DNA of 64,000 bases from NCBI GenBank assembly GCA_964035545.1, contig OZ037767.1, positions 22,797,128-22,861,127 on the forward strand. Reading direction: 5' to 3'. A model generated the notes under the pieces. The model did no database searches. It worked only from the letters and a program-made list of their open reading frames with translations, and was not told the DNA's origin. The translations under genes were made by a program, and so were the position numbers. Positions within the stretch are counted from its first letter, which is position 1; every line of letters starts with the position of its first letter. The DNA comes from Bugula neritina (Eukaryota; Bryozoa; Gymnolaemata; Cheilostomatida; Bugulidae). Below, piece after piece: positions 5,214 through 62,674 of the stretch.

Positions 5214-8200
5214 AACCTGGAGTACCATGGGGTGATGAGGTTTCTGTTCCAAGACGCTGGAGCCAAGCTGGCCACAAAGTGTATCAGAGTGGCCAGTTCA
5301 GCCAACACTCAGAACGTGATTGAGACGCTGGTGGAGAAGTTCCGACCAGACATGAAGATGCTCACAACTCCCATATACCACCTGTATGAGGTCGACTCAA
5401 ATGGAGGTAGGGGTGTTTCTCTTTGCACTTAGCCACATGTCTGTATGCCTTGACCAGTGTATTTATTTGCCACTGGATCACATAGCAGTTGTGTAAGGAT
5501 TCACTTCACACCACGTTTACTTTTATTCACTGCCTGCTGCTAGAACTTGTTTGGTTTATTTTAGCTGAACGTCGACTTGATCTAAGCGAGTACCCATTGG
5601 AGGTCCAACTCAACTGGACTCGTGACGAAAAGGAAGGAAAGTTTGTACTCAGGAATGCAGCTCACAAGCCAATCAATGTACAGAAGGTAGGCCACGCCCT
5701 CTCCCGTGTTTATATACATGTGTGTAGTGTTGATAATATTTCAATTGTTTGTGATTTCGCCGGCTGCTTTGACGAAGTAAATTGTGCCAAATGGGATACT
5801 TTGACCACCCAGTTTTTCTTATGCAAGCAATTCTTGATTTTACTGTTGGGATACTGAAAATATTTTAATCTCATGAAATGCTTGTCATTCTGCTTTTAAT
5901 AACCAGAGTTTAGTCTCTGATAAGAGAAATAGTTTCCCACCTGCAATATAATGTTAAGGTTTATAATATAATGAAATAACCTGCACGGCATGACATTCCG
6001 TGAGGATTTAAGTACAAAAGTCTACCCACTTCAGCTAAGATGTCTAATAACCAGCTATTTACTTTCTACTGTATTTTATTTACGCTTCGAGTAGAAATCA
6101 ATGGGAGGTCTGTGCTGAATAGCAAACTAGTAACACATAAGGTAACTTTTTGCAGGCGGATAAAAATGAAAGCAGCTTTAAAAGAAAACTGAGCAAACGT
6201 GAGAAGAAAGAGCAAAAGAAGAGACAGGAGAAAGGGGGAGACGAAGACAAAGAAAATGATGTGAGTTTATAACCTTTTACTAACAGTATATACTCTTCAC
6301 TAACAGTGCATATGTGTACTGTATAGTATATACTCATCACTAACAGTGTATGTGTGTACTGTATAGTATATACTCATCACTAACAGTGTATGTGTGTACT
6401 GTATAGTATATACTCTTCACTAACAGTGTCTGTGTGTACTGTATAGTATATACTCTTCACTAACAGTGTCTGTGTGTACTGTATAGTATATACTCTTCAC
6501 TAACAGTGTATGTGTGTGCTGTACAGTATATACTCTTCACTAACAGTCTCTGTGTGTACTGTATAGTATATACTCTTCACTAACAGTGTATGTTTGTACT
6601 GTATAGTATATACTCTTCACTAATCATACTATTATGAGGTCAACTTAGTGTCAAATTTACTTCCTTTATGTGCTTCAAGAGCACACAACTCCTTACATCC
6701 TGCTTATTGCTGTTTTCCAGGAAGAACCTTCCGGAGTTTTTGTGAGAACCAAGTCCAACTCTGAGGCAGTTATGAAGCGGAGAAGAGAGCTGAAGGTGCA
6801 GAAGAAACTGGACGAGATCCAGAAGGAGGGGGACCACGGTGGTCTGCTCAAGATCCATGGTGACAGCTTGAACCCCGGTGTGCCGTACAAATCGCTGCTG
6901 CTCAGTGCCACAGACAGTGCTGCCTACGTTGTCAAGGAGATGCTGGATAAATATGGACTCAACAAGGCAGCCTCTGCAGATTACTGTCTAGTTCAGGTGT
7001 TCAACGCGAACGCTGGTGAAATTGGGGGTGGGCTCCGGCCCCAGGAGCACATCCTTCAGGACGATGAGTGCCCCCTGGCTATTCTTCAGCATCAAGTGAA
7101 TAGAGGTGACTGCTTGTTCCCATTTACTACTCTGCAACTTTCAGACAGCGTTTGTTTTATTCTAAGTTTGCTGTGGTTTAGGAGCATTCTATGTAAGTTT
7201 GCCATAGATTAGGCTTTCACAGTTAAATTTGGCCCATTTTGATATTCATATGTGACGGAAACCTGTTTTGATATTTATTTGTGAGGAAACTCACAAGGAA
7301 AAACAGTATCTTATTATTATATAAACTTTTCATCTTATTATAATATATAATTATCCACACACTTCCCATCTAGTTCCTTCTAAACTGTGTTGCTATGTGT
7401 TAAATGTATGTATTCAAGAAACTAGGTTCCAATACTGATGTAGTGATTATACCAAGACTCAGTGAATGCTGTATCCCTTCTCTCACCACTCCTCTCACTA
7501 CATCCCTTTTCCCAACACCCCTCTCACTACACCCCTTCTCCCAACACCCCTCTCCTAACACCCCTTCTCCCACTACCTCTCTCACTACTCCCCTTCTCCC
7601 ACCACCCCTCTCACTACACTCCTTCTCTCACTGCACCACTTCTCTCAAGACCTATTTTCACAAGGCCATGTTTAACCATTAGTCTTACTCTATCTGTTTA
7701 GGCAACGTGACGTTTGATGTGAGAAGAAGAGATGGAAAGAGGACAACTTCTGAAGACAAAGGAATTCCTTTTCTCTTGGAGCTTAATTTAGATGGCAGTG
7801 ATATCATGAAGCCTATGAAACATTTATTACACACAAACCTTACAGAAGTCGGCAGCATTGCCCAGCCTAGCAGCGGTCAACATCTAAGGGTAAGACTCCC
7901 CCCTTGCTAGTCAGAAAGATAAACTTATCTGTTTCAACTTGTCAGGGTTTGTCACTGACTGATATAGCAGGTCATATTCATGCCTCGCTGACTTTGCTCT
8001 GAGTTAAAAGGGTTGTGTAAACTTTGCAGTTGTTAATACAAAGAAGTTTAAGTGGAACCGTTAGCAGTCGGCTGCATCGTGAGAAGACCTCAAACCGCCA
8101 TCTAGTGGTATATTTGGAATGCAGTGAATTTGGCTTGCCTCAGAGATGCAAATTGATCTCTTACAGTTCTAGGTGTTGTAGACGTTGTTTTTCTATATTG

Positions 8201-11200
8201 CCTGCATGGAGTTTTCCTTGTTCTCAATGTTAAAGTATTGTAATATGCAAGTGCTGTTGAGGCGATTTGGAGTTGTTATCTCTGTATACATTAGTTGTAA
8301 TGAGGTGTGCTACCTGGTACGGTGCAGTGTGTAACTATAACGTGGCATGAGTTTGTAAAAAGCCTTTTACCTTTTTATATAGAAGACTGTATCCCATGTC
8401 ATTACTGGGCCACTTGCAGTATCCGGAGTTGTCTGCTATACCTTGAAATCTCTCTCTTGAAATAGTTTGCTATAATTTACAATTTTAGCTTCCAATCAGT
8501 AAAAAGCGTAGCTTTATATATAAAAGAGTTTTATGAGCTTCCGTGTCTTGTCAACTTGTAGCACCTTGTGTAGGTTGTCAAGATAGCAGCTGTATCTCAA
8601 AACAGTTGGATAGCGCAGAGGTTGATTATTAAGAGCATTGCAAGTGTTTATGTTGATTAGTAGTATTGTACTGATTTTTGGGTTGAATGATCATTAAATG
8701 TCGCGTATTTCCAGAATGGCTTGTATGAGGTGAATAGTTTGTTATAAGACCTTTAGTGAACTTTTGGAATGTGTTGAAATTGTATGATTCTACCAGATGG
8801 AAGGCTATAATGTTATTAGCAATATTCTAATACACACCAAGTATACAGCATGCATATATATATATATATATAGGCTTGCTGTGTGTTACAGTTATAGTTT
8901 GTTCTGACTTTTAAACTGTTGATTGTTAAAATGTAGATGATTGGCCCCACCATTGAGCCCCACCACGCAGTTATAGCCAACATTGAGGGCGTGGTCACAG
9001 TGACACCAATTGCACCCGAAGCCGAATGCTACGTAGAAGGGAAGCGTATCTTTGAGACTACGGTACTCAAACATGGCAAGGTTGTTAGGTTCGGCCACCA
9101 CCATGCATTCAGGTTCTTTGATCCATCGGAAGATGAGGTAAGAGCTTATGGTGAAGGAGATTAAAATAAATTGTGTGCGAAAGGTTCGGGCAGAACTCTT
9201 GGGCTAAGTCGTATTGTTGTTACTTGCAGGTGAGAAAGAGGAATATGCCTGAAGGTGTTGATGGCGTAGAGAATGGTCCCTTAGGCTACAGTCCTCGTAT
9301 GGATGACGTCCTGCCAGCTGGTTTAGAGTTCAGAGATGAAGGTGAGCTACACATCTTACTAGTAGATGCTGCAAAACTGTGTTAACTTTGCTACAATCAA
9401 CATACATTGCCAACATTACTACTTGCTATATGTGTAAATTCCCACTAAAATGACAAAACACTTTGAACACATAGGCCCGTTCATTCCCTATGCTTTCCAT
9501 GTACTAACTTGTTGTAATGTGTGACAGGGGAAGACGGCTTTCTATTCTCTGTCATAACTGAAGTAACGGAAGGGATCTGCCAGTTCAAGTTGGCCCCGTG
9601 CTACACGGTGTATTTAGCCTGCAGGTACAGAGTAGATAGACTACAACAGGGCATGTCTCTTGACGAACACCTACATAAACTGCTCATGTTCTGTAACAAG
9701 GTACGTCAGTTTACATCCTCTTGCAGTACATTCTATATTGTGCTACAGCATATTCGGTAAAAACCTTCTTATATATCGTGATACACCATTATATATGATA
9801 ATACACTTTCTTATATGATAATGCACCAACATATATTGTATATCATGATACATCATTATATATCGTAATACACCATCATATATTGTGATAGGTGAGTTAT
9901 TTGATCAGAGACTGCGTGAACCGATATAAAGGCTCACCGCAAGAGCTTGCCTTCTGGATGGCAAACATGTCTGAACTTCTGCACTTCTTCAAGATGGACA
10001 AAGATCTCCAAAAACAGTCTCAGCAAGCTCAAGTTAGTTTCTCTTCTACACTAAGTTATACTTTCTTATCTGTAAAGTTGGTCTAGAATCATATTCACTA
10101 TTATATTCCCCTACAATAAGTACCCTGGTAATGCTAATCTTACTCTAGTATTGGTCAACGTAGTAAGGTCATGTTGATTGAAAAATATTGTGTGGACACA
10201 ACTCCTTTGAAAGGAAATATGATCATGCAATAAAATATTCTGGAATTATGGATACAATCAGAAGTTGTTTAAATCTTTTCTCAAATGCTTTTCAACCTTT
10301 TCAACTCGTTTAACTTACATCTATTGATTGATTATTGGATTGGCTGAAGAATTTTGGTCAGAAAATTGAAATAACGTGGCTTTTTATATTGCTGTGTTTT
10401 GAAGCCAACACCAGAAGCAATGATTTGAAGCATGTTGTGTGTTTTGTAGAATGTGTTAGCTAGCACAGTGCAAGATGCGTTCAAAGAGCTGGTGTATATT
10501 ATGCAAGGTGATCTCTACTCCAGTATGCCAGCCTTCCTTGCAGAAGGCGACAGTGACGTTGAAGCAGGTGTGTATATGTCGTAGTAACTTGAGGTATAGT
10601 GTATGGTGACAAGTGGTGATGTTATCTCTTGTCCTTTCTGTGTTCTCTTAATTTTTCAGATTCTACAAGTTTATATCACAAACATATTTTAGTATAATAT
10701 GATTATATACAGTATATACTATACATACACTATCTGCTGTACATAATGTACATGTACATAAAGTATGTATATTAGAGACAGTATGTACTGTACATAATGA
10801 ACTCACTGTATATACAGTACATCCTGAGTGGTCTGTTAATACTCTGTATTATATTTTGTTCAGAGAGACATGGGGTGGAAGCTGGACGTCCTAGTATAGG
10901 TATATCATGGTACTATGTAGTGATACCAACATATCTAGTAGAACGTATCTAGTAGAACGTATCTAGTAGTATGTCTGTAGTATGTAGTATCCTGCTTTAT
11001 TTAGAAGACATTGTCTACTAAACCAGCCATCTTCCTGCAAGTTATTGAAGCCGTTAATGCTGTTGTAGAACCTTATATTGTATTGTACGTTGTACAGTGT
11101 TTCCAGAACATTCTTTCATCCCCTCCTCAATCCTCCCCAGCGTGTCTGCTGCTCTCTCCTTTCCGTACTTTCTTAGTCATCACAACTCTCTGATTCGTCG

Positions 11201-14200
11201 GTACATTCTTGTTAATGTACCTCGTGTGGGTGAAGCTTCCCTCCTCTAACCCATACATGTAGTTGTTCAAAGAAGTAAATTTTGTATTCCCAAGAATTGT
11301 CTTGCCTTGATTTCCCTGGAATCCCACCATCCTCAAACATGTGTCCTTAAACTAAGAGTTCAGATAATTTATTGAGTGGTATTATAGCTGAATTGGTTGT
11401 GTGAATAGCATTTCCTGTGATCTTTCTTTAGTGATACGGTAATAATTCAACCCTCGAAATTCTGTACTAGTGTTAGACCAACCATTTCTTTCATTTGGGT
11501 AAATATCATTCTCGCTCATGTCTTGCTATTCTATCTAGCTGTAGAACAGGCCTATTAGGTTGTTGATTTCACGTTTCAGCTAAATTCTATAAATTTCTAC
11601 TTTGTCTTTCTAATAACAAACCATTGCTAGAACTATAATGTACTAATACTCCTGCTATTTTCTTCTCTTCTCAGATGATAATACTAATGATTTAATACTG
11701 TTTCTCCTTCAGGGGAAGTACTTCATGTGCTGTCATCTGCCATGTCGCTTCTCAGACGCTGCCGTGTCAATGCTGCCCTCACTATTCAACTCTTCTCACA
11801 GCTGTTCCACTTTATCAACATGTGGCTGTTCAACAAGCTAGTGATGGAGCCCCATCTGGGACTCATCACCAGACAGTGGGGCGTACGGCTCAAAAGGAGG
11901 CTGCACCGAGTGGAGGCTTGGGCCGAGAAACAGGGTCTCGAGCTAGCCGCAGATTGCCATTTGTGTCGTATCAGTCAGGTGCAGTATATAACTGTGTAAT
12001 ATACATATAATATGTTGCTCTAACATATATCATCAGTTGCACACCATGTCTGCACATACTAAGTGTTGATAGGGGAGACTCACACTATAGCCATCTGTGC
12101 AATTATAAGTGGACTGGACACTGTGAATACACCTCCATGTTGATTCTGTTGCAGGCAGCGCACCTGCTCCAGGCACCGAAGCATAGTGCTGACGACATCG
12201 CCTCCATCAGCTCTCTCTGCTTCAAACTCAACTCAGTGCAGCTGAGAGCTTTATTAGAGCAGTATAAGCCAGAGCCTGGGGAGATGCCACAAGTACCTCA
12301 GGTATAGCATGTTGTCTCACTGTAGTGTATACTGTCACTACTGTAGTGTATACTGTCACTACTGTAGTGTGTACTGTTACTCTGTAGTGTATACTGTTAC
12401 TATGTAGTGTGTACTGTTACTGCTGTAGTGTGTACTGTCACTACTGTAGTGTGTACTGTTACTCTGTAGTGTGTACTGTTACTATGTAGTGTGTACTGTT
12501 ACTGCTGTAGTGTGTACTGTTACTCTGTAGTGTATACTGTTACTGCTGTAGTGTATACTGTTACTGCTGTAGTGTGTACTGTTACTATGTAGTGTATACT
12601 GTTACTGCTGTAGTGTGTACTATTACTGCTGTAGTGTGTACTTTTACTCTGTAGTGTAAGCTGTTACTACTGTAGTGTGTACTGTTACTCTGTAGTGTGT
12701 ACTGTTACTCTGTAGTGTATACTGTTACTCTGTAGAATGTGATAGAGAGTGTAGTCAGCGTAGCACGTAGCACTGCTGATGACCTCACCAGATCTGAAGG
12801 CAGAGAGGTCACTCTCAATGAAGACGCTGACTTACAGCTGCCTTTCCTACTTCCTGAAGACGGATACAGCTCTGACATCATCAAGGGAGTGCCTCAAGGT
12901 GTGTGGAGTTGTCTCTCTCTTGTGTTACACTGTAATATTCTACCTACGCTGTAATACTCTACTTACGCTGTAATACTCTACCTACGCTGTAATATTCTAC
13001 CTACCCTGTAATATTCCACCTATGCTGTAATACTCTACTTACGCTGTAATACTCTACCTACACTGTAATACTCTACCTGCTCTGTAATACTCTACCTACT
13101 CTGTAATACTCTACCTACACTGTAATACTCTACCTACTCTGTAATACTCTATCTACACTGTAATACTCTACCTACACTGTAATACTCTACCTACACTGTA
13201 ATACTCTACCTATCTGTTTATCGGCCATTAGTCATGACTCTGAATTCAATGTAATGTATTTCTTGGTAGTTAAAGTGTCATATTTGGAGGTGAAAGAAGT
13301 TAGTTCAGTTGTATTTGTATATTTATATGTCGTGCATTGCTCGTTCCTGCAGGTCTAGCCGATTTCCTAGAGCCTGCGATGGGAGACGGGCTGTGTAGAC
13401 TAACCCCCCTTCCCACTCCCACTGGTAGTTGGCAAGTCTTCATGAACGAGCTGGACGAAGACAGTCAAGAGGATGACGCAATGTTGCCACCTGGCCAGCC
13501 GGGCGTACCGAATGTTCCCGATAGTCACGGAGATGGAAGACAACCACCGCTGGTGGATGTTGACGGACACATGCATCTGCCTGCTGAGCCCGAGATTATA
13601 CACATACAGTTGCACAAGGTGAAGGGCAGCATGGGACTGAGCATTGTGGCTGCTAAGGTGAGCTTGATTTTTCCAGCGGCATCTGCCATCCCTGCAGACG
13701 CAGTAAACTGACACGTCTGCGTTAATCAGAAATTATTTCGCTTGTCTTTCTTACATGCACTGCAATGCAGGTACTGTTGGGAATATAATAGCACAGCAAG
13801 TATACTTTATATACCTTGTAGGGCGAGTCTCAGGTAGAGAAAGGTATTTACGTGAAATCAGTGGTGACAGGGGGCGCTGCTGATCAGGATGGTAACTTGA
13901 AGGCGGGCGACCAGCTGCTGGAGGTCGACAGCAAGAGTCTAGTGGGGCTGACGCAGGAACGAGCGGCTGACCTCATGAAGGATACTGGCCAAGTGGTGGA
14001 CCTAGTTGTTGTAAAGCAGGGGGCCATCTATCATGGCCTGGCTACACTCCTTAATCAGCCCACCCCGCCTATGTCAAGGCCAGGTGGCCATCCACTCCCT
14101 GCTCAAGATAATCCGTCATACATGGTGCAGAGCAAGTCAACACCAATGCTAAACGGTGAGATTTCCTGTAACTATACTGTAGTAATTGTATATTATATGT

Positions 14201-17200
14201 ATATTACTATATCTACTGTACATGTGTATTATATATAATACTGTATATGTCTACTGTACCTGTGTATATGTAACGTATGCAGACGACAGCTATGACCAAA
14301 GTTTGCCCAGATTCGGAGGAGGTGCAGCAGAGGACATGAGATCAAAATCTCAGGGTAACCTGATGAGAGAAGATGAGAGAGGGAGGTGGCAGCAACAGCC
14401 TACCATATCTCCTCCGGGAGACAACAGGTCTGTCTACAAGTATCTCTACAGTATATTACTACTAGTATCTCTACAGTGTATTACTACAAGTATCTCTACA
14501 GTATATTACTACAACTATCTCTAGAGTGTATTACTACAAGTATATCTACAGTGTATTATTACAAGTATCATGTGTGTTGTTTGTTTCAGAGCCGATGCTG
14601 ATAGTCCAAATTATCAAAATCTTCCAGAAAACTTGGCACCCGGCCAGAGATCTGCCCCACACTACAGAGATGGTGGGAGCGGTCCTGGCCCCGTGCCTGC
14701 TGGCCAGATGACAAACAGACCTCGGTCTGAGTTTGTTGACCCCAACTGGTATCCTCCACCTCCAGATGATCGTCACCAGCCGATATACCAGAACCACCAG
14801 ATTGGTAAACCGCGGCCAGGGTAAGTGTTGTAGTGTGTTTGCAGTGTGACCTAGCTTATCTGTGGGTATTTAGCTCCAAGTAGAGTATAAGTTATGGTCT
14901 AACCAACTGTAGATATGACGATAGAGAATTACCTTCACCTCCTGGCAACGAGAGACCCCCACCTGTACCGCCTCACCCATCTGAGGAGGACCAACTCCCC
15001 CTACCACCCCCTCCCTCTAGTGACTACATGAACTATCACATAGGCAGTGCTCCTCCCCCCAAGCCTAGCCAACCGAGCATGTCACAGCAGAGACCCAGGT
15101 GTGTATTCTCTTCTGTTTTACCAGAATTCCATATTCCAACCGCTAATAGGCCCAGCTACTTGCTTTCTTACATTAATATTTCCAGTCAATCAATATGTGA
15201 ATATCTAGTAAGAAGCTCCGGTGTATTTCTGTAGAATGGATGCACCTTCAGATCCCAGATATAGCAGACCAGACCAGAGAGGACCTCCAGAGGCCCCGAG
15301 GGCAGCTGCAGAGCTTCCTCCATGGGCCAGAGGCGCTCAGAGGCCTCCTGGCCCTGTCCCGAGTGCTGGGCCAGTTCGAGGGGGTCCACCATCCCCCCGC
15401 AGTCCAACTAGTCAGCAGCCCGCTCGGCCAGGTTTTCATCCTCAAGGTTCACGACCCTTGCAGCCGGGTGACCTGATGAGAGGACCTCCAGTCATCCAGC
15501 CCTACAGACCACCAGTCCCCGGGGACTCATATAGGGGACCCCCAGTCAGGGGCCCCCAACCCATGGACCCATATCGGGCACCAGGTCCCAGGCAACCCAT
15601 AAGGCCAGTGAGTAATCAAGTCTATCAGAGTCAGCCAATGAGAATGCAGAGACCACCAGCAAATCAACAAATGCCACCCAATCAGATGAATCACAACACG
15701 ATGAGTAAAGATGGCGACTCTAGAAGGTGAGACTCTAGCAGTAAACCCAGTAGTGTGTGTATGGTGTGTGTATAGTGTATATAGTGTGTGTATGATTTTT
15801 GTATAGTGTGCGTATAGTGAATGTATAGTATGTGTATAGTGTGTGTATGGTGTAAGTATAGTGTGTGTATAGTGTGTATAGTGTATGTATGATGTATGTA
15901 TAGTGTATGTATAGTGTGTATAGTGTATGTATGATGTATGTATGATGTATGTATAGTATCTTTATAATGTAGTATTCTACAAGGCGGTATGCTACTAACA
16001 TATGTACACATGACGTCTTCACTCACGGTGTCTGTTGTTACAGGATGTCAGATGACAGACGGATGGCGCGGGAAGATAGTATCAGAGACTTGGAGTCTAA
16101 ACCGTACCGCTCTACGGAGGAGGAGGAGCGTCTGGGTCGTCTCCGCTTAGACTCAGAGTTTGAGAGGAGAGCCGAGATGGCCAGAAATGAGTCAGAGGAT
16201 GATGGCTCTATGGTGAGTCATAGTTAATGATTCATCCGTCTGGTGTAATAGAGATGATATAGTTCAGTTCATTACTTTGTTTTCAACTCATTTTTTCTCC
16301 ATGCTGAATCTTTCCTAAGACAGCTGACTTGAGTTCACCCTGTTTTTAGAATCGCCCATATGCCAGTGGACCAATGCTTCCCAATAGGGGGTACCAGCAG
16401 CCTCCCCCACCCCAGCTGCAAGGTATTCGCAGGTAGGAATTTCTCTTATATGTTCACATAACCTGTTTGTAGGTTGATCACAATGTTGTGCTATATCCAC
16501 CATTTTATACACATGTTCACCTCCGCTACTCAACACACAGTTTCTTCTGCTAGTAACTCTTGTGATCTTCTCTCTTTGCTCCGATTCATGCTCAAACCTT
16601 GTTCTGGTGTCCGGCTTTTGGCAACTAAAATTTAGGCAATTTGTAACTTTGTTGTATTTAGTTCGGTGAAATGTTCCTCCATGCTTCATACACTGAATTA
16701 ATTTTTATGTAGCTGATGCTTCACTGTTTGGCATCATATTTTATGTAAGACAGGGTGTGAGGGTCATTTCATATGCAGGCTTATAAAGAGCTGTTGCACT
16801 TAAACTATTCGCTTACGACTACTGGTTGCATATTTCAATGTCAGTGTTTCTCTTTAGGGCTGGGCTGCCCGCCCACTCGCAGGCTCCACCCACCTCACAG
16901 GTAGATTCCGCCTCCTCAGTCAAACGGGACATGCTTCAGAGTAAGACTGTAACGTTTAAACCTGCATACCGGGGCGATGAAACCATACGACCAGGAGATT
17001 TCTCTAAACACACTCTGAAACAGGATGACAACAGGTAACTTAGTGGTAGCCGTGCCACACTGCAGTACTCTGGCTCATCTCTCGTGTCTGTCTAATGTAA
17101 CAAACTAACGACAGTACTGTATTATATTGTATTATACTGTATTATACTGTATACTCGACATTCAGTATTAAATGTTCTCTTATTATTGCAGAGCACCCGA

Positions 17201-31197: not shown

Positions 31198-31244
<47 letters not shown>

Positions 31245-46692: not shown

Positions 46693-46733
46693 ATACTCGA
46701 CAAGTCCAATGAACATATGCCGGCAAGTTGGAG

Positions 46734-46739
46734 AATAAA
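46734..46739 (+). terminator. polyadenylation signal of the GLTP-fold gene
   Basis: AATAAA 42 bases after the stop codon TAG at 46690-46692. Confidence 0.6.
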
Positions 46740-47059
46740 TGACCAGATGATGACTGAACATGCAGTGTTACATACACAGCTACATTTTATGTAATATGAA
46801 ATTTTTTTCAATTAACTGCGGAATATGTGAACTGTTGAACTCAAATTATTACACTTATTACCCCTACATATCTTTTTATTAGCTATCATTATAACCAGAT
46901 TTGGAATACGATATTTTGAATTGTTAAACTTTGTTAAAATATTACATCTAAATGTATATATTCTCTTCTGCTTGACCCGTTGTAACATAAATTATACTGA
47001 AAGATTTGAAAGCTGCTAGATTATAACAACACTGTAGTGAGATTATGAACACATAGAAC

Positions 47060-47065
47060 TTTATT
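47060..47065 (-). terminator. MACO1: candidate polyadenylation signal of macoilin
   Basis: TTTATT on the + strand (AATAAA on -), about 640 bp after the macoilin stop. A second AATAAA overlaps the stop codon itself at 47701-47706, so the true end is unsure. Confidence 0.4.
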
Positions 47066-47701
47066 TCGAGTCTGGTGTATGTATATTGCTAGGTTTACTG
47101 AATACAGCCCACACTTGTTGATTTACAATGCATGATGCTACATCTAGATTCAACAGTTCGTATGGCTAGAGAGCCATCTTGTTTCACACGACAGTCTTTC
47201 CCCACCCATTTGTCCCGCCCAGCAGCTGCTCCACACTAAAGGTTCACTATGGGTCATGTGGCTTACTGAGCAATTACCAAATATTATAGAGATTTACAAC
47301 ACATTTACAATCACACACTAATATATCAACTCATAAGGAGCTGGGAACAGAAAACAAAACTGAGGGCAATAATATTATTACAACAGGGGGAGCCTTAATC
47401 TTATAGAACTGAGTCTAGAAACTACATTGGCCAGATGGATCCAACCAATAAAAAATTGTATAATAAACTTCACTAGAAAGAGACAGCTGACAAGCCCCGT
47501 TACTTGGTGACTGTAGTGTGAATCAGGATGGCTCTCTGCCACTCATATGTATATAAACCATAACCTGTCAAAAAGCATGACTGAATAGAAGCACATTGTT
47601 AGAATATAACATTAAGTTGTGGGTAGAGGCGCCCACGCTGTGGGTTACGCTACCCACGTGTGCCGTATAGACAACAAGTAGTCAAATATTGCCGATAGAG
47701 T

Positions 47702-50700: not shown

Positions 50701-53700
50701 TGATAGCACCATGTAAGATAGACATGTTTCAACTACATAGATTCATGAAATCAGACCTATACTATACTTGTTCTGCAGACTATCGTTATTTTGCTGCAGA
50801 TATAACCTACTCGTTCTGCAGACTATCGTTATCTTGCTGCAGATATAACCCACTTGTTCTGCAGACTATCGTTATCTTGCTGCAGATATAACCTGCTTGT
50901 TCTGCAGACTATCGTTATCTTGCTGCAGATATAACCTACTTGTTCTGCAGACTATTGTTATCTTGCTGCAGATATAACCTACTTGTTCTGCAGACTATCG
51001 TTATCTTGCTGTAACTGCGCCAGACTCACGGCCTTCTGCCTGTCATCTTTTGACTTGCTGTTGAGTTGTGACCTCAGCTCACTCTCCGTGTTTCGACTAG
51101 ATTGCAGATCTGCCTTCAGTCTCTTCACGTCTGACTCGAGGCGACTGGAAAATTTAACACGAAGTCTGTCTGTTACTCTCCCATCCCTTATTTACATACA
51201 CTTTCATTTACGGCAAGTGACGCTAAATTAATCCCATGGAGTGAGTCAACGTAAATGTTATTCAACATAATGTAAATTTCCGCAACTGCTAAAGAAAACT
51301 ATTGTCACAATATAATACAAGGACTTGGCAATACTTTCAACTACAGATACTGGTACTAAAGAGGGCAATTCCAACATTGTAAGTGATGGCATATCAGTGC
51401 ACAATATTGTAATGACCATAATTGTATAAGCATCCAACGGAGTAGATTATACGCAGCACCAACCTTATACTATACTCCAGTTTAGTGACAGTATCCCCAG
51501 AAGAGTGCACAGTGTGTCCATTGCTAAGTGGGGTGGTGAAAGATATAGAGTTACCGCTGCCGTTCTGAGTGGAGGCGAGTGTGGCGGGAGAAGACGAAAT
51601 GTTCTTATTCTTTTTGCTGCCGAGTTTCCTGGGTTGGGCGGAGCTGCCGTCTCTATTGCTAACTTTATTGTTTTTGCTCTCATTAATCATATTCTCCGTG
51701 TCCTCGTTCACGTCGTTTACGTTACGCCGGTGCATTTGGTAAACTCCGTTCTCATTATCATTGTTGGAGTCAAAGTCCTCAATATACTGAAAACAGTAAC
51801 AAAACTCAACATAAACTCAAACAGCACGCTGTGTACTCTAAACAAAACTTCAGTACTCGTGGAATTTCACATAAAGTGAAGGCACGTGCAGTACACTGTC
51901 TTTCCACAAACTGGAGCAGGTCGTTGTGTCTTTCAATGAAGAAAATCAATACATAATTGGCTACACAGCAGCTATGATGTATGGAAATTATTCTAAATAG
52001 ATTCTTGACTTAATATTTTACACTTGGGGTTTAATGAAATACAGCAATTAAAGTAAAGTAGCAGTGAAACAGTCCATCAGTAAAGACTGGTGGCTTAACT
52101 TGATCCAATAAGATTCAGAAACATTTTCAGATCGAAGAAGTACATCATGTATTGTTACAGAGATCACATGTAGGTCTTCCAGCTCTGCTAGAAGCTAAGT
52201 GAGATGACACATGCAAACATAAAACCTTCAAACTGGCATGTCTAAATATAATATTTTGGGATCTAACAGCGGCTCAACACTTTTACCGGAAGTTTCTGAG
52301 AAAGATGGCCCTGAAGAAATGTCCCAACCAGACCATACAAAGCAGCCAACTGACACAAGCAGAAGAACACTTACCGCAGATTTATTGTTTTGGTTGCCAT
52401 GGCTAGTAGTAAACTTCTCCAGAAAGGAAGAGGCAAAGTTGGTTGTAGTCAATGAGATCGGGCTAGAAGTGTTTTGATTGGTCGAGCTGCTAACATCAGA
52501 CGACTCTGAGCCGTCGTCTGACACATCATCCAGTTTATCTGCAGCAGACGATCATACATACGTATAGTTATATGATATATTACAAATATATGTATAGTTG
52601 TATGATATATTACAAATACATGTATAGTTTGTATTATATATTACAAATATACGTATAGTTATATATTACAGATATACGCATAGTTATACGATATATTACA
52701 AATATACTAAAATAATATAATCATAAACATATATTTATATGATATATTATAGATATGCGCATAGTTATATGATATATTACAAATATATTAAAACAATATA
52801 ATGATATATTACAGATATACGCATACATATATAGCATATCACACTTACTGTCTTTTTTACTTTGGTCTTCAGAAGATCTCACATTTCCTTCATCGACATT
52901 TTCTGAATCCCTCAACTCCACGGGTAAAGCTTCCTGAACCAGGTTCTGTTTCCACCGGTTGCTCTGTTGCACCTTGTTTCTAGTGCGCTGCAAGTAGACA
53001 GACACATTGTAGTGCAGACTTCACATACACGCAATACATGTGACACACTAAAGGAAGCAACACCATGCGGTAATACACAGCACACAGTGTGAAAATAAAT
53101 ATTTATACATTACATTTTTTCAGTGTAAAGTAATAAACTCTTATATAGAGAAGAAAAAGCACCTTCCATCTAAATAAGTACTAGAGATGAAAATACTCAG
53201 TAACTAGTGAATTCATGCTAAGAAAAGACTATAGAGAAGCTCCTGGGACCATATTTCTACAGCTGAGTCGTTGAAATACAATAAACGTACATGTAAATAT
53301 ATCATAACAAAGAGAACAACTCCCGATTTCCACCCCTCTGCGACCAGATGACATTATTGCATTTATTGCCTAGCAGCAAGATGTTAATGAAGCCATGTAA
53401 AAGAATACAGATTTCACGACACAAACTATTATTAGAATGTGTCACAAATGTTTTTAGGAAATTACCTTTCGTATAGATTCACTAGCAGCAGTTTTTATAC
53501 CATATCCAAGTGTTACCACTGGGTATCCGATGCTGCAAAATGAATGGAAACAAAATACTAATAATCATACTTTTGTCTATATATTTATGTAGTTTATATA
53601 TTAATGTAGTGTATATATTAATGTATTGTATATACTGAAGTAGTGCATATACTGAAGTAGTGCATACACTGAAGTAGTGCATATACTGAAGTAGTGCATA

Positions 53701-56700
53701 CACTGAAGTAGTGCATACACTGAAGTAGTGCATATACTGAAGTAGTGCATACACTGAAGTAGTGCATATACCAAAGTAGTGCATATACTGAAGTAGTGCA
53801 TACACTGAAGTAGTGCATACACTGAAGTAGTGCATATACTGAAGTAGTGCATACACTGAAGTAGTGCATACACTGAAGTAGTGCATATACTGCAGTAGTG
53901 CATATACTGAAGTAGTGCAGAATAAGGCAGGGGGAAATAACTTACCAATGAGCAGCAAATGGTCTACAGAGATCCATGTTGAAAGGGAGGGACTTCTGAT
54001 CTTTCATTCTCAGTGCAGCTTCCACATAGACGAATAGGAGCCAAAGTAGTATAGATGAGGCACATATTCCCCTGTCTACAGCATAGTTAGTATTATAATA
54101 CACACTACTGTATAGTTAGTAGTATAATACACACTACTGTGTAGTTAGTAGTATAATACACACTACTGTATAGTTAGTAGTATAATACACACTACTGTAT
54201 AGTTAGTAGTATAATACACACTACTGTATAGTTAGTAGTATAATACACACTACTGTGTAGTTAGTATTGTAATACACACTACTGTGTAGTTAGTAGTGTA
54301 ATACACACTGCAGCATAGTTAGTAGTATAATACACACTACTGTATAGTTAGTAGTATAATACACACTACAGCATAGTTAACAGTATAATACACACTACAG
54401 TATAGTTAGTAGTATAATACACACTACAGTATAGTTAGTAGTATAATACACACTACTGCATAGTTAGTAGTATAATACACACTACTGTATAGTTAGTAGT
54501 ATAATACACACTACAGCATAGTTAACAGTATAATACACACTACAGTATAGTTAGTAGTATAATACACACTACTGTGTAGTTAGCAGTATAATACACACTA
54601 CTGTATAGTTAGTAGTATAATACACACTACTGTGTAGTTAGTAGTATAATACACACTACTGTATAGTTAGTAGTATAATACACACTACTGTATAGTTAGT
54701 AGTATAATACACACTACTGTATAGTTAGCAGTATAATACACACTACTGTATAGCTAGTAGTATAATACACACTACTGTATAGCTAGTAGTATAATACACA
54801 CTACTGTATAGCTAGTAGTATAATACACACTACAGTATAGTTAGTAGTATAATACACACTACTGTGTAGTTAGCAGTATAATACACACTACTGTATAGTT
54901 AGTAGTATAATACACACTACTGTATAGTTAGTAGTATAATACACACTACAGTATAGTTAGTAGTATAATACACACTACTGTATAGTTAGTAGTATAATAC
55001 ACACTACAGCATAGTTAACAGTATAATACACACTACTGTGTAGTTAGCAGTATAATACACACTACTGTATAGTTAGTAGTATAATACACAGTACAGCATA
55101 GTTAGTAGTATAATACACACTACAGTATAGTTAGTAGTATAATACACACTACAGTGTAGTTAGTAGTATAATACACACTACTGTGTAGTTAGTAGTATAA
55201 TACATACTACAGCGTAGTTAGCAGTATAATACACACTACTGTATAGCTAGTAGTATAATACACACTACTGTATAGTTAGTAGTATAATACACACTGCTGT
55301 GTAGTTAGTAGTATAATACACAGACATAATACAACAGCTGTAAACCAGCAAACAAATGCAAGAATACATCTTTACAGACTATGGAGGAGATGGGCTTGGC
55401 TGAAGGTTTGTGAATTAACAGTAGAAAATGATCAATAGGATGTTGACAGCTAGAAACAAAGGAAGCCTACCTACGGCCTGCAGGTGTGCTGGACTAACTA
55501 CTTTTGCAGCCAACAACCACCTATTATACATAACCAATATAGACTCCTTCTATTTATTACTTTGATGAAAATAAAAGACCTACATACATAACCAGGCTAG
55601 TAAAACACACGCCCACACGAATCATTGTTATATATCCAGATACTGATGCATCATATATTTATAATTAATTACAACAACACTGCTAACACCAATGGCTGGG
55701 TGCCCCTACCAAATATGCCCCTGAACCCCTCGTTCACACTTTGCCTTATCATATGTCGGAACAGCAAATATCAGCCATCTTTACACATGTCTGAGCTTTC
55801 TGTACGGCGTTGCCGTAGGTTAGGATCAAGCACTGCTTGATTCAAATGAGTTATTATTGGACAGAAAAACTTTTGCGGCAACTCATTGGATGTAATTGTC
55901 CCATGAAGTGTCATATATCGTACCTAGTAGCAGACATTGAAAACTTCAGCCTAGACACATTAAAAATGTCGGATATTTTACTTTATGGCGTACGTACGGC
56001 TAAGTGTGAATGAGGGATTATAATAGTTTTATTCATATCTACGTTTCAAAGTACACCTCAGAACTGACTCTTTCATTCAAAAGCTAAGCACTGAAATGTC
56101 TGTTACTCATCTCAGAAGATACATTATATAAGCTGCCATTCTCGACCTCTTGGAGGGGCAGCAGAGCCCAGAGTACTCTGAACTGCTAATACTGCAGGAC
56201 GGCAGCAAGCATATGACTCATAGGCAGCAGCTGCCGTAAGACTTTTGTCTACACATTAAGATAAAGTTCATGTAGTAGTCTACTGATGCTAACAGCTCAT
56301 GTCTGCATCCAATATTGCTATACATATATTTTATTATAAGCTGTTAGTTGAAATAGAGTAGCAGTACCTTGATATTGCTGCTGCAGCCTGCAGGGCATAA
56401 TAAGTGCAGGTGTAGTTTGTTAACTAGCTGTAGTGTAGATTGATTTGTAACTTACAGCATTACGTAGGAGCAGAGAGCAAGAGTGAGAGAAGCAAGGTGA
56501 AGCTGCTAAATCAATATCACAGCAGTTACAGGGTCAACAGACTGGAGACACTAGACATAGTAATCCCTAATACATGTTCTCTCCTAGCATGGCACCTCTT
56601 TGACACCATGTTCTCTCCTAGCATGGCCCCTCTTTGACACCATGCTCCCTCCTAGCATGGCCCCAACAACCCTTAAACAAAGTCCTCAAACAGGCCAAAC

Positions 56701-59700
56701 AATTTGCTAAATAACAGCACTTTGGGGCCCTTGTTGGTTGAATTCATGGACTGTAAAAGAGTGCCTTTCGTTGTTTGTTCTTTTATAAATATAAATTTAG
56801 GAAGATTGCAATTCCACCATAGTAAGAATTCTCTTTAGGAACAAAAGCAGTTTGAAAATGCTAAAATGGCATTACAGCTTTCACAGTTTTACCTGGTCAA
56901 CTCCGTCTGACAATCAACGCTTAGTTGCCTTAATTTCTCCTACATCTAATTGTTACACTTTACACAAACTATGAGGCATAGCCCAAAGCTGTTAGCTGTT
57001 CAAATCAACAAGTTTCATTCCACGACAAGAATTACTGAATCAGAGTAGTTAAATTTTAGTCCTCACAACAAAAAACAAACAACCTTGAACAAACAAATAG
57101 CTCTATACTCAGAGCTGGTTTCTCTTGACCACAAGTTCAACATGTATCAATGAGTGAGAGAAGTAGCAATTCAAAGGTGCTTCAATCTACACAAGGGTCT
57201 TCACTAGTTGCTAACTTGTAGCAGATTGAAGCAATTGGAGAGACTAGACCAGCAACTGTTGCTACAGGCATATCTGCAACTGAGTGACAGTGATGAATGA
57301 AAACAAGTGCAGGCAGAAAATAACTTTCTGCCAGATAAAAATACATGAAATGATGAAAGAACATGAATCTATGTTAATAGACCCTTTTCAAATGTCCCTC
57401 TAGGGGCTTTTATAATTTGAAGTTGTCTCCTCCCACCCGGTATATGGGGGAGTCTATATGATATATAGAAAGTCATAAAATCAGGAGAAATTTAAGGTTT
57501 GTGTGAGGACTATTGCTAGCATGAGTTTTTTCTTTTCTGAGATAAATATTTTGGCCTAAGCATACATAATAGCAGTTCCAGAAAATTTTTAAAAATTTTC
57601 TTTCTTGACAAATCTTGAGAAAAATAAACTTCAAAGCATGTTTGTGGTTTTGGTTACTGAGCAAGTTGAAGTGGTAACTATGATACAAGTCTCATTAATT
57701 ATTTGTTATACTGGCTGTCATGTTCAATTCATAGCTGTTGACCTTTCAACTTTTTGGTCAGAATCTGCTGTTAGCACAGTCTTAGAGCTCTGCTAGTGAA
57801 TGAGACAGCAGATTAGCTGTTAGCATTTTCAATTAATTATATACTTATGCACTTATGTTATGAGAATAGCTAAACTACCTACCTCAATACCCATCAATTT
57901 CAAGAAGCATTCTCACAAAACTATAGATAAATGATATATTATTAAATAGACTGGTTAAATTTGTATCATCAAACGAATATGAAATGTGGATTAATACATG
58001 CCGTTTAATTTTCTAGCAACAATTGTGCTCAAATAAATATATCTAGATAAACCCCGATAGCCTTTTAGCTGTTGGCATTCAGGTTTTTGTGTTACAGTTT
58101 TGTTATTTCTTAATATTATGCCTGTGGCTTGTAGTATAGGAACAGTAGTGAAGAAATTGAGATAGCCTAAGTTTTTTGAATTTCTTTATAAATTTTGGTG
58201 TTGCACATAACATAACTTCTTTTGCTACATTTCTAATCTAGAACAAAGGCTTTTCTCAATTTCTCCATTACTGCACCTACCCGTGTGTAGTAGTCATCTC
58301 TGTCAGCTGCAGTAGACTCAAGGTCCTAGTTAATGTAGGTGGTAGGTTAAAACATAGTTATATAATGAAATAGGTAAAAGGCCAACCTAAGCCAGCCATT
58401 ACTGAACCTGAAAACCCAAGTTTCTCAACTCATCAAATTGCAACATAGGTAAACTGAATTATCTGAAAACCGCTTCTGAAAGAATTTCTGGTTGAAAAGT
58501 ATGAAGCAAATTCTGATAAAGGAAGCAGTGAAAGTATGTTGAAAATATTGAGTTATTAACTTTTTGCTTGGGTTTTCAGTGAAACCATTTAATGTTATAG
58601 CTTCTCAACTTCTCATGCTCTAAATATCTACATCAGCTAGTCTTATTGAAACTTAGCTGTAGTTTTACAGCTGGCTTGGCTGATCCTGGGTCACAAAATG
58701 TTATGCATAATCGAGGATAAGTTCACCCCAAGTATAACATATCGATCAATTAGAACTTTCAAATAAAACTATTAGACCTGTTGTAAAACATGCAATAAAG
58801 ATATAGGGCAGACAAAATATTTCAAGATGATATTGAATTAAAAGATGTCTGCCTCTTGTAAATACTTTAAATGAGCTTCTATTTTAAATATTCCTACAGA
58901 GTTTTGACTTTTTTTTCATTCATTTTTGTTCATGCCTACTTATATTATAGCCAGTATTTACACTGAATTTCGCAACATGTTGTCGTGTCTGTGATATGCA
59001 ATAAATCAATCAACTATATAAAATATGTTAAATAAATTTTTGCCTAAACTGAGCTTTGCTTCTCTTAGTAATATTTTTCTTTTAAAAAAGTTTTGGCTAT
59101 AACATGAAACTATGTAAAGCATTGACGGTCCTTTGAACATAATGTAGTACAAACTCTTCAAAGTATAATTATGTGTACATGCTATAACACAGCTAAGCAG
59201 GCATGTGAGTAATTACATGTAACTAGCAGTGAAACTGGACCACTGCAGAGTTGAAAGGTCAATTCAGCTATAAATTGCATGGCCATAACAGACAGGACAA
59301 CAATAGATAGTCGAGACTTAATCATAGTTGCTATTTCTGCATTGCCCAGCAACGGAAACCACAAAAATGCGTTCAAGCATATTTTAGGCAACATTTTTGC
59401 ATGTTGGGAGGACACAACTCTTAATTTTAGCAGGACATTGGAGACCACTGAAAAGGGTCTATTAATAGTCTATCATTCTTCACTATGACATCACCAGAAT
59501 CACCAGTCTAGAACCTATAGACTGAGTACCAGTGATAGACTGAGTACCAGTGAGAGACTGAGTACCAGTGGTAGACTGAGTACCAGTGATAGACTGAGTA
59601 CTAGCAGTAGACAATTCATTCACTATTCGCCCAACTGTGATGACAAGTAAATACATTATCAGATTATGTTCTGCGTTGTATGACATCATAAGGGACAGAT

Positions 59701-62674
59701 ATGCAGGTTGACACATTGACACAGAAGTGATGGGAGACTTACCTGTATGCCACACGTACTGCACCCATACATAGCTGCTAGCTGCAAAGAATAACCACTG
59801 GACAGGTATCAGGATGTAACAGAGGACGTCAGTTCCTATGGCCGCAATCAGGAACAGCATAGTTAACAGCTGCAAATAACATACAATATAGCCTTTGTAC
59901 CTCAACATTGGCTCACAGCTGTTCACAGGATATAAAAGTGATAAAATGACTTAAAATTAAATTTCAATAATAAAAAGAATCTCCAGTTGCCCAGGTAAAG
60001 TTCTTATTCTTAGATACTACTCGACTTAAATTCAAAATTTTAGCTCATAAATTAAGACTGTTGGGGCTAATGCAGATAGAAGTATCAGTTTGCATTAGCG
60101 AACGTCAATATGAAAGATGTGTCAAAAATCAGGAAATGCGTTTACGATTCAGATAGAGGTAATAGGGTAATCCATCTACGAGCTTCCTATTTTCCAGTCA
60201 GTGACTGCCAACGTTACAGAAAGTAATACAGATAAATCCTATGTGCAGTATAACTGCTCTCCAAGATATCATCAATCAAATCCTTCAACTGTTTGACAGG
60301 AGTTTATAGCCACTTTCAGCTGGCGTCAAGCCTATGCAGTGCTGGCCAGCTCTCCATAAAGAAGTAGACCAAATTTTAGCAATATCTGCTAACTGATTGG
60401 GTTGTCATAACTCGGCACGTTTGAGAAAAATCAGTTTTTATTTTGAAAAACCTTAATATTTCAATTAATTTTCAAGCATTAAACAAACCACAAATCTTTC
60501 AACTGCTTTGCTTTCAAATTTATAGTTTATTCTGCATAATCCTATTGTATTGGTCAGACACTGCAGCTGTGAATGATATAAGGTTAATGTAATAACTATA
60601 CCTGCACTTGTATTTACATAGCATTTATTAGAATATAGTCTGCAAGCTACTTATAATTAACAGCTACTTACAAATCCCTGGTATTTATATGAATCTTGAA
60701 CGGATCGAAGTAGCAGCCACACCGGATACAAGTATTCAAACCGAAATTCCAATATAAAGTCAGCCAGCAGTACCAGAATCCAGATCGTGAGAAATTTTAA
60801 ACAAGCTAGAATACTAAAAATAAAACAAAACAAAACTAAGCCATGTGGTAATTGTGCTATATGTTCCTTCCCTCAACTAAAATCACTGCAGAACTTTGTT
60901 GAACTATTTTTATTTTAGCAATAGCAAAATGACATTTTTTAAAAATTTGTCAACTATTATTACTTATGAACTCCTATTTGAGAAAATTGCCCACAATTGT
61001 TTACAATATGGCAATTTAAAAGCACTGCAAGCCACTAATTTCCGTTAATATTAGACTATTAGGATTATTATAAAAACCAATCAAACAAAGTACAGTTTAT
61101 TTCAACTATTTGAGGCAGTTTATGAAAGCTGGCAGAGAGTTTATGACCACTTTCAGCCATTATTTAGAGTAACAGGAAGCAGATTATCTACAGCACCAAT
61201 CAATTTCACCCATTCTAAGTCTCCAGTTACACTCATTACTGTAAATTAAACTAAAACACCTCCCCCCTACTAATAATATGATCAACCATAGTTAAATTTC
61301 CATTTGCCTTTCGTCAAACCTGCAAGTACTTAAAATGATATTTATTGGTAACAATGTGAGCGTGTGTAAGACCAAAGTAAAACTTAAATTAGGAGTAAGT
61401 CAACATACCTTAGGCTTAATATTTACTATTTAGTCAGTTAAAAACAACTGAAAGAGTGACTGAAATTAAGTGCAAGTACCAGACTGCTTCGTGAAAATAT
61501 TGATAGAGATCACTACTGATTAGTACCGTTACCATAACAACTTTTAACAGTATCACAATGGCATAGTAGATCTAGAGCACTGTTACTTTAATTTCAGCAG
61601 TTGCTGATGGTTTTACTTTAGGTCCAACTATTACCATTGATTGTAGTGGTATCATTTTACAGATTTATAAACGCTAACAAGTTACTAATTGGATTTATTA
61701 TTTATTAAATACAAAAATATAATTATTATATTTGTCATGTTAACAGATAGCCTACTCTAAACCCATTTTAGCACAATGATATTATCATTTTAAAAATGGA
61801 TGATTGATGTTTATATCTATGACTATAACTACATTATTGACAGAATTATAATGCTAATTATCATAATACATTTGTTGTCATACTTAGCAACTCTTAGCCA
61901 TTAGTTTTGGTAATTAATAAGTACTATTTATTAGCCTTGCTTTGAAGTTTAGGCAGTGAAAATAAAATAGTAATACCACATTATGTAGTATACTGTATAT
62001 GTAGTATATACAAGTATTTGGACTAGTCTATCAACTTGGAGAAATGCTCACTTTAGATTTTAGTATATAATTTAGAATGAGAATCAGAATGACAGCCACA
62101 ATGAGTCTATGAGGATCAAACTTTGAATGAGGCTTAGAGTTAGTATTAGTATTAGTATATTAAAAAGAAATTGAAAGTTCTATTTACACAACTGATTACT
62201 TTGGCTTCAACTTTATAAGTTTAGAACTCAATATTTATTTTTATACTTTTAATTATAATTTTAGTTGTTCACTCTTCAGTCAAGTTTAGGTTAAATTCAT
62301 TATATTTAATCTCAAAGCTAATGATTTATAGTACTAATAATAATTTAATAATATCAAAGACAAAAGTAGTATAATTATTATTTAAGTTATGACAAGCCTA
62401 ACATTTACTTTTACTAGTACATAATAAAACTATAAGTAAACTTAAGTATAACTATTACTATAACATAAACTTGAAGCTAAACATAACACTAGCAGTAAAT
62501 TTATTATTTATCATTATATTAACTTCAAGTGAGTCAACAATTGAAGTTTTAAACAATTGCAAATTGAAATTATACTGAAATAGTATACCTGCTGTAACTA
62601 TAAACGCGTTCAGAAATCTTTTTTGATTTCATAGGACGCCGAAGTTTTCCAGATTCGACATTCCGCCTCTTCAT
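47702..62674 (-). CDS. MACO1: macoilin, ER membrane coiled-coil protein, complete in 15 exons
   Basis: Macoilin (TMEM57) is a conserved animal protein of the rough ER and nuclear membrane, needed for neuronal function in worms. Exons in order: 62589-62674, 60672-60813, 59743-59869, 53946-54075, 53466-53532, 52849-52987, 52375-52538, 51464-51786, 50983-51144, 50219-50401, 49851-49995, 49379-49538, 48401-48502, 47923-48055, 47702-47789. The frame is intact from ATG at 62674 to TAA: 716 residues (human 664). The start MKRRNVESGKLRRPMK matches the human start. Membrane segments: about 32-60 (ILVLLADFILEFRFEYLYP), 78-115 (IPVQWLFFAASSYVWVQYVW), then LLWLLFVYVEAALRMKDQK and DLCRPFAAHCIGYPVVTLGY. 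A Ser/Asn-rich low-complexity middle about 220-445 is followed by a long coiled coil (RLESDVKRLKADLQ, LQQDNDSLQNKLHN, DKQNLANAEKKLAEEKKLRE, AARAVALANAS) and a Ser/Pro C-terminus. Five introns carry arrays that include their own splice sites. Confidence 0.97.
48322..48432. repeat. triplicated exon end plus donor in macoilin intron 13
   Basis: Three copies, 36-37 bp apart, of TTACCAACAGGGTGGTNTGT plus ATACATG. The right copy is the real end of the exon 48401-48502 (SSMYTDHPV) with its donor; the two others, in the intron, keep complete donors at 48363/48364 and 48327/48328. Confidence 0.92.
49584..49751. mobile_element. MITE-like element, copy 2 (CACTG termini)
   Basis: A 168-bp relative of 17442-17588 with ends CACTGCATTTCCATTGCTTT and AAAGCAATGGGAATGTAGTG and inner inverted pair CGAATGGATTTGTGG / AAAAATCCATTCG. 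It is flanked on both sides by ATA, a perfect 3-bp target duplication. It lies in macoilin intron 11. Confidence 0.85.
50035..50218. repeat. 21-bp minisatellite of perfect splice donors in macoilin intron 10
   Basis: Nine units of CCAGCACTACTAACTCACCTG. On the - strand each unit reads GGCAGGTGAGTTAGTAGTGCT, so each holds a consensus donor CAG|GTGAGT identical to the genuine donor at the right edge (exon ends 50219 with GCTAGCAG|GTGAGTTAG). Four units are exact in the donor; others have GTGGGT or GTGTGT. Confidence 0.94.
50410..50652. repeat. 36-bp minisatellite in macoilin intron 9
   Basis: Six to seven units of GTGCTGTAGGTACTTGTCAA plus GTTATATACAGAGCAG. It ends about 10 bp before the splice acceptor at 50402. 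The Tyr/Ser/Thr/Cys open frames on both strands are artefacts. Confidence 0.92.
50772..51013. repeat. 43-bp repeat built from a macoilin exon end and its donor
   Basis: Five intronic copies plus the exon copy of CTGCAGACTATCGTTATCTT plus GCTGCAGATATAACCTACTTGTT. On the - strand each copy is about 29 nt of coding sequence (LQQDNDSLQNK) followed by the donor AA|GTAGGT. The real junction is 50982/50983. Confidence 0.93.
52555..52830. repeat. about 30-bp AT-rich minisatellite filling macoilin intron 6
   Basis: Units of TATAGTTATATGATATATTA plus CAAATATACG. It spans almost the whole intron between the exons 52849-52987 and 52375-52538. Confidence 0.88.
53595..53930. repeat. 17-bp minisatellite in macoilin intron 4
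   Basis: About 19 copies of TGAAGTAGTGCATATAC. Because 17 is not divisible by three, all three reverse frames cycle through the same residues, producing three overlapping long false open frames. Confidence 0.95.
54076..55332. repeat. 29-bp minisatellite of about 43 units carrying the macoilin intron 3 acceptor
   Basis: Unit close to TAGTTAGTAGTATAATACAC plus ACTACTGTA. On the - strand several units read AACTATGCTGTAG, identical to the sequence that forms the acceptor of the exon 53946-54075 (GCTGTAG|ACAGGGGAAT). The largest tandem array in the window, inside a 5.7-kb intron. Confidence 0.95.
55333..57377. other. macoilin intron 3, unique part
   Basis: AT-rich sequence with no recognised exon. 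A short near-duplicate at 56572-56660 repeats CTCCTAGCATGGC with CTTTGACACCATG three times. The open frame near 57182-57364 has no recognisable family. Confidence 0.5.
57378..59461. mobile_element. 2.08-kb element with inverted ends and TTAA target duplication
   Basis: The left end is TAGACCCTTTTCA and the right end TGAAAAGGGTCTA; TTAA flanks both (57374-57377 and 59462-59465). The similarity continues inward as a diverged inverted repeat: 57378-57800 on + resembles the complement of 59180-59461 (AGTTGTCTCCTCCCA against AGTTGTGTCCTCCCA, and ACCTTTCAACT against AGTTGAAAGGT). No transposase-like frame was found inside, so it is probably non-autonomous. TTAA sites are used by piggyBac and Kolobok elements; the assignment is inference. 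Confidence 0.72.
59516..59612. repeat. 18-bp minisatellite near macoilin exon 3
   Basis: Five units of TAGACTGAGTACCAGTGA, about 130 bp downstream (- strand) of the exon 59743-59869 and 50 bp from the TTAA element. Confidence 0.88.
59870..60671. other. macoilin intron 2
   Basis: About 800 bp of AT-rich unique sequence; nothing recognised beyond the splice sites. Confidence 0.6.
60814..62588. other. macoilin intron 1
   Basis: About 1.8 kb, very AT-rich, no repeats of note and no exon-like frame. A first intron of this size can hold regulatory sequence, but none is visible. Confidence 0.55.

Follow-up and report, generated by a model that had tools for sequence, protein, structure and literature searches.

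Minisatellite arrays at splice junctions in genes of Bugula neritina: counts consistent with border-blind growth and selection

Several genes of the bryozoan Bugula neritina carry minisatellites that end at a splice junction or run across it into the exon, in some cases copying coding bases together with the donor. We found such arrays in afadin, SCAP and macoilin and, as a sequence-only reading of these genes had led one to expect of a recurring process, again at and across junctions elsewhere in the genome; the targeting of exon-intron borders that the same reading proposed was unsupported. Arrays met junctions as often as would be expected if the duplications that founded them took no account of the border, and exon bases were copied at nine donors and one acceptor. 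On balance we favour fast minisatellite growth that would be blind to placement, with selection then deciding what persists.

Materials and methods

The window analysed is a stretch of 64,000 nucleotides (C3:22797128-22861127); all sequence read amounts to less than 0.2% of the 215.8-Mb, 295-contig assembly. Arrays were called with Tandem Repeats Finder (period of at least 10, score of at least 50), and the best one was kept where rows overlapped. Splice junctions are models obtained with a purpose-written spliced protein-to-DNA aligner that uses splice-site scores. Afadin was aligned against three deposited homologues (P0001, P0005, P0011) and, at its C-terminus, against the window's own peptides. 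The SCAP references were deposited proteins of B. neritina (P0121) and Watersipora subatra (P0122). For macoilin, the aligner was run with peptides read from the window DNA, which we take to be macoilin from their likeness to the human protein. CCT8 was presumptively assigned by alignment to the human sequence. Modelled introns in the window finally numbered 52.

Loci of PDS5, ORP8 and ZFAND were sampled solely for their resemblance to the array at macoilin acceptor 54076; their assignments, from alignments to the respective proteins, are presumptive. In the last PDS5 intron the PDS5A junction was used and not that of PDS5B, and the array covers the donor under both. Five dynein heavy chain loci, each a 40-kb stretch located by Pfam PF12774, provided a further sample. 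Its 244 introns were each agreed by at least three of four reference proteins (all four for locus D4), and others were left out. Dynein genes on contigs C35, C113, C149 and C176 have 10-14 in-frame TAA/TAG codons, as in the ciliate code, so that these contigs look like ciliate contamination.

Junction contact was defined as a distance of at most 10 bp and counted in a pool of 86 array-intron pairs (31 from the window, 25 from array-rich genes outside it and 30 from dynein). Fifteen of the 46 window arrays lie outside the modelled introns and were excluded from counts, the arrays that had led to loci L006 and L007 were left out of the pool, and that of L008 lies outside its modelled introns. 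Two nulls were compared: in one, arrays were confined within introns; in the other, the founding unit was placed at random and could overhang the exon. The sample comprises seven genes plus five dynein genes; arrays of one gene are not independent, and the P values for a donor preference stem from repeated looks at the same small data set. For the duplication test we used junction-centred 24-mers, a close copy being a match of at least 18/24 within 160 bp. The window coverage profile and 24-mer counts include one macoilin donor that was mis-set and has since been placed at 52848. At the window's five exon-spanning donors, we followed the reading frame for each array copy with a donor score above 1.5.

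Arrays in the window

The window contained 46 arrays covering 8152 bp, far above chance: 20 dinucleotide shuffles in 1-kb blocks averaged 3.1 arrays and 159 bp. Arrays were present in 26 of the 52 modelled introns, which together held 31 of them (Table 1). The sequence-only reading had named ten positions, in at least nine introns, as junctions that an array abuts or includes. All ten proved to be splice junctions in the gene models, in ten introns, and at each an array overlaps the junction or ends at most 8 bp away; nine positions were exact, and the donor given as 23818 lies 4 bp off, at 23814. Further arrays were found at 6-7 bp from donors 14428 (less certain), 36245 and 36579. Coding bases had been reported in four arrays. 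Their presence was borne out, in five arrays and not four, at donors 23814, 34286, 48400, 50218 and 50982, with 8-42 bp of exon included.

The copied coding sequence points to where the units came from. In the array at donor 50982, the 43-bp unit includes the exon end coding QQDNDSLQNK, a peptide which we take to resemble human macoilin. At donors 23814, 50218 and 50982 the copied exon ends encode residues that are presumably conserved in the human homologues, which argues that these units originated in the exon. The deposited Bugula SCAP is 98% identical to the window SCAP over 65% of the query (Watersipora SCAP, 62%), which points to that species or a near sibling as the host. SCAP introns 1-10 were the same under both references in spliced alignment. 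In macoilin, donor 52848 yields the peptide KKDNKLDD in the junction model.

Table 1. Gene models and arrays at or near splice junctions (positions in the window)
Feature	Position	Strand	Description
Afadin gene	5214..17034	+	21 modelled exons, possibly more upstream; homologues P0001/P0005/P0011 and window peptides
SCAP gene	23023..39796	-	20 modelled exons; spliced alignment of P0121 and P0122
Macoilin gene	47705..60779	-	14 modelled exons; window peptides, aligner junctions
CCT8 start	63239..64000	+	Gene continues in L010; 6/12 introns with arrays
Array	9769..9883	+	20 bp x 5.4; afadin acceptor 9891 at 8 bp
Array	12320..12735	+	41/62 bp; 416/434 bp of afadin intron, ends at AG of acceptor 12735
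Array	14434..14569	+	25 bp x 5.4; donor 14428 at 6 bp (junction less certain), acceptor at 20 bp
Array	23650..23837	-	41/92 bp; across SCAP donor 23814, exon part 23 bp
Array	29985..30091	-	15/30 bp; SCAP donor 30095 at 4 bp
Array	34233..34328	-	50 bp x 1.9; across SCAP donor 34286, exon part 42 bp
Array	35949..36238	-	22/104 bp; SCAP donor 36245 at 7 bp
Array	36429..36572	-	19/78 bp; 144/162 bp of SCAP intron; 6-7 bp from donor 36579
Array	37296..37476	-	23 bp x 7.9; SCAP donor 37482 at 6 bp
Array	48322..48428	-	36 bp x 2.9; across macoilin donor 48400, exon part 28 bp; GTAAGT three times
Array	50046..50226	-	21 bp x 8.6; across macoilin donor 50218, exon part 8 bp; CAG|GTGAGT and variants repeated
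Array	50765..51011	-	43 bp x 5.7; across macoilin donor 50982, exon part 29 bp
Array	54076..55322	-	29 bp x 43; ends at AG of macoilin acceptor 54076; unit contains TACTAAC and, after it, AG

The unit of the 54076 array contains TACTAAC and, after it, an AG. We considered TACTAAC as the branch consensus of the species and rejected it: among 251 introns it occurs only three times within the final 30 bases, which means that the unit does not represent the usual branch site. The array at 36429..36572 has, in sense, the unit TATACTTACCTGTC, the complement of a strong donor, which we take to resemble the 5' end of U1 snRNA. A general asymmetry of sense and antisense splice motifs among window arrays was rejected, being carried by one or two arrays.

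Other repeats were observed in the same region. The SCAP intron 24042-29699 contains, at 24245-29434, two inverted arms of 1137 nt and a further 60-nt pair, 100% complementary and about 2.8 kb apart. A 335-aa frame between the arms gave no Pfam family match. The structure is probably a mobile element of the foldback or terminal-inverted-repeat kind and of very recent origin. At 2.8-6.4 kb upstream of the window (L009 3609-7223, minus strand) lies a Ty3-like retrotransposon whose open frame includes domains for reverse transcriptase, RNase H and integrase. Short frames with HKSIR.DPF.AME, alike at 17444-17686 and 49556-49769 (minus strand), suggest a dispersed repeat.

Arrays outside the window

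Arrays were present in 29 of the 244 dynein introns, as compared with half of those in the window, and by bases the window genes exceeded the dynein loci roughly two- to tenfold; array density thus varies strongly between genes. In CCT8, which adjoins the window, a 19-bp unit with AGGTGAGC, repeated 18.8 times, makes up most of a 394-bp intron at 67466-67859, and all six arrays of the gene begin within 42 bp of donors. In PDS5 (L040 and L007, contig C2) most of a 437-bp intron at 9794-10230 is taken up by a 22-bp unit with GTAAGT, which runs from the donor onward in 18.8 copies. A second intron opens with 9.4 copies of GTTAGT (the array through which the locus was found), a third repeats the exon end plus GTAAGT six times and a fourth has GTCAGT 3.5 times. 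Altogether 5 of 16 PDS5 arrays, one of them that through which the locus was found, start at most 3 bp from a donor or cross into the exon. PDS5 also has an array across an acceptor (36 bp x 3.2, exon part 15 bp), and the ZFAND-like gene has two copies of a 37-bp acceptor segment, ending exactly at the AG.

The idea that introns grow stepwise by such arrays, put forward from the window sequence, found a weak hint there: introns with arrays had a median length of 424, against 238 for those without (P=0.22). Dynein introns with arrays were longer (P=0.0007), though much of the excess was not array.

Junction contact compared with chance

We found junction contact in 29 of the 86 pairs, at 19 donors and 10 acceptors. 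When arrays were confined within introns, 15.4 contacts were expected (P<0.0001 in 40,000 simulations), whereas 28.4 were expected when the founding unit could overhang the exon (P=0.48). By subset, the second null predicted 11.6 contacts against 13 observed in the window, 10.6 against 10 in array-rich genes outside it and 6.2 against 6 in dynein. The prediction that array-to-junction distances would depart from random placement was thus upheld in the sample genes only for placement inside introns, and the proposed border-targeting process or hotspot was not supported, since only the null that forbids exon overhang was rejected. Taken alone, the window had 13 of 31 arrays at most 10 bp from a junction against 6.5 expected inside introns (P=0.0006), a value that is post hoc as the window was chosen for showing the pattern.

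Coverage profiles had no peak at junctions. At window donors, coverage rose from 0.16 in the first 10 bp to about 0.36 deeper in the intron, and at acceptors it started at 0.04 and reached the interior level by about 90 bp. For CCT8 and PDS5 together, donor coverage climbed from 0.16 to about 0.4-0.56 inside the intron; it stood at 0.52 by 40 bp and formed a slight hump (0.56) between 50 and 60 bp. Acceptor coverage rose from 0.11 to about 0.5 only near 170 bp. The 24-mer test gave a similar picture. In the window, close copies were found for 5 of 51 donors (one mis-set), 0 of 51 acceptors and 326 of 2029 interior intron positions; in dynein, for 1 of 241 donors, 0 of 241 acceptors and 136 of 4659 interior positions.

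Donors and acceptors did differ in some of the comparisons. Among strong arrays (score of at least 100, n=56), the overhang null predicted 10.95 contacts at either end; 17 were observed at donors (P=0.026) and 6 at acceptors (P=0.046, a deficit). In the window, donor contacts numbered 10 against 5.8 expected under the same null (P=0.037). Arrays lay nearer donors than uniform placement inside introns would give (Kolmogorov-Smirnov P=0.011 in the window, 0.012 in array-rich genes outside it and 0.0004 for all strong arrays). The shift was largely gone once 40-60 bp at the acceptor were set off limits, and the window enrichment of 10 donor contacts against 3.9 became only 10 against 6.0 or 7.5 with acceptor bases off limits. 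Donor-specific enrichment was weak in the overall pool and not significant in the five dynein genes, which had no donor bias (mean relative array position 0.55, if anything nearer acceptors). A test for repeated donor words was set aside; outside the window its result was carried by one CCT8 array.

Exon overhang at donors and acceptors

Of 88 pairs, nine had exon bases inside the array at the donor and one at the acceptor (binomial P=0.021). At two of the nine donors the overhang is no more than 1-2 bp, and the counts without these are 7 and 1 (P=0.07). Competing splice sites, which had been suggested as a consequence, are present as sequence. However, at each of the five exon-spanning window donors the donor-like array copies shift the frame or meet a stop, so that only the exon-proximal copy would preserve the protein. 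The deposited Bugula SCAP protein, probably a gene prediction, joins exons at 34286 and 37482 as modelled; together with homology it is consistent with the use of exon-proximal donors in SCAP.

Discussion

The explanation that we favour runs as follows. In array-rich genes, short tandem duplications of about 15-90 bp would arise frequently and expand into minisatellites, and the position of the founding duplication would be blind to the exon-intron border, as the contact counts suggest. Nearly all duplications in coding exons would be removed by selection. Those across a donor may be tolerated because the exon-proximal donor stays in use and the extra copies of exon end plus GT turn intronic, where they would be neutral. 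Those across an acceptor would seldom be tolerated, since the order of branch point, pyrimidine tract and first AG has to be kept. The 3' splice site is picked by scanning from the branch point, and a duplication across an acceptor sets a new AG upstream, so that the mRNA would change. The outcome would be introns that mainly repeat their own 5' end. We read the donor excess as tolerance, a reading that leaves room for a mild donor preference.

A hotspot at the border, where R-loops, paused polymerase or nicks at intron 5' ends favour duplications born at donors, would account for the donor share of contacts, the excess among strong arrays and the donor-near arrays of PDS5 and CCT8. We nevertheless regard it as doubtful: total contact equals the border-blind expectation, donors have no coverage peak, and duplicated donors are few in the window and in dynein next to interior positions (16% and 2.9%). 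A related view, in which the 5' splice site is the privileged birthplace and introns are rebuilt stepwise outward from their own donor, up to about 19 donor-like units, appears unlikely to us. Repeated donors might also be kept by selection, as decoys or as length-dependent regulators of splicing. Downstream of macoilin donor 50218 come six CAG|GTGNGT sites, of which two score as high as the true donor, and a 38-bp intron minisatellite is reported to affect splicing of human TERT (PMC3948165). Against this, the examined copies give a frameshift or a stop, array sequences and positions vary from intron to intron, and 8 of 11 donor-near window arrays are without another donor scoring at least 4, which makes such selection quite improbable.

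Insertion of a single dispersed or introner-like element with splice-like repeats into many introns is, in our view, very unlikely. The 54076 array does have 91 DNA matches in the genome, five within itself and 86 elsewhere at 64-79% identity. However, as the sequence-only reading had held and as was confirmed in the sample, units vary in length and sequence and several contain coding bases of the local exon; the genome-wide search covered the 54076 array only. Near-identical introns scattered over the genome, the mark of introner-like elements, were likewise absent from the sample. The least probable explanation is an artefact of assembly or gene models. One macoilin donor was at first mis-set, and junctions and arrays were read from one assembly, but dynein junctions were agreed by three or four of four references, the deposited SCAP protein joins the same exons and array copies differ by point changes.

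The way in which the spliceosome chooses among identical sites, and intron lengthening without a change of mRNA, can be put to a natural test in introns that contain 3 to about 19 near-identical tandem modules, donor or 3' splice. The donor/acceptor asymmetry amounts to a simple rule, open to a genome-wide test.

Parts of this picture are known from other systems. Where introns are gained because an AGGT segment has been tandemly duplicated (Rogers 1989 and Hellsten 2011, cited after PMC4974935), the duplicated AG|GT segment likewise gives a unit that starts with GT and ends with AG; the Bugula copies, in contrast, sit in existing introns at an existing junction. The VNTR in intron 6 of human TERT, a 38-bp minisatellite (PMC3948165), is similar in lying within an intron. 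The closest likeness is to the amphioxus 'mirages', minisatellites across exon-intron boundaries of Branchiostoma Adh3 and the globins BflGb6 and BflGb9 (PMC3087553). Both 5' and 3' boundaries are affected there, RT-PCR suggests that splicing is undisturbed, and two haplotypes have 6 and 3 units (PMC3087553); length polymorphism and somatic instability are further traits of the amphioxus type.

The Bugula repeats also span the boundary and include exon bases, and besides 5' boundaries a 3' boundary is hit, in PDS5. Many carry AG/GT signals, yet most donor-near window arrays lack a further donor of the score given above. They differ from mirages in that donor cases outnumber acceptor cases in our sample and the host is a bryozoan; a bryozoan report of such arrays was not found among the matches listed, most subscription journals being outside their coverage. 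In some genes the arrays of Bugula may also be denser, repeated donors opening at least four introns of PDS5. The phenomenon is thus known from amphioxus, and is found here in another phylum, dense in some genes and with a testable donor/acceptor asymmetry. With this extension to another phylum, mirages may prove to arise generally wherever minisatellites in introns turn over at a high rate.
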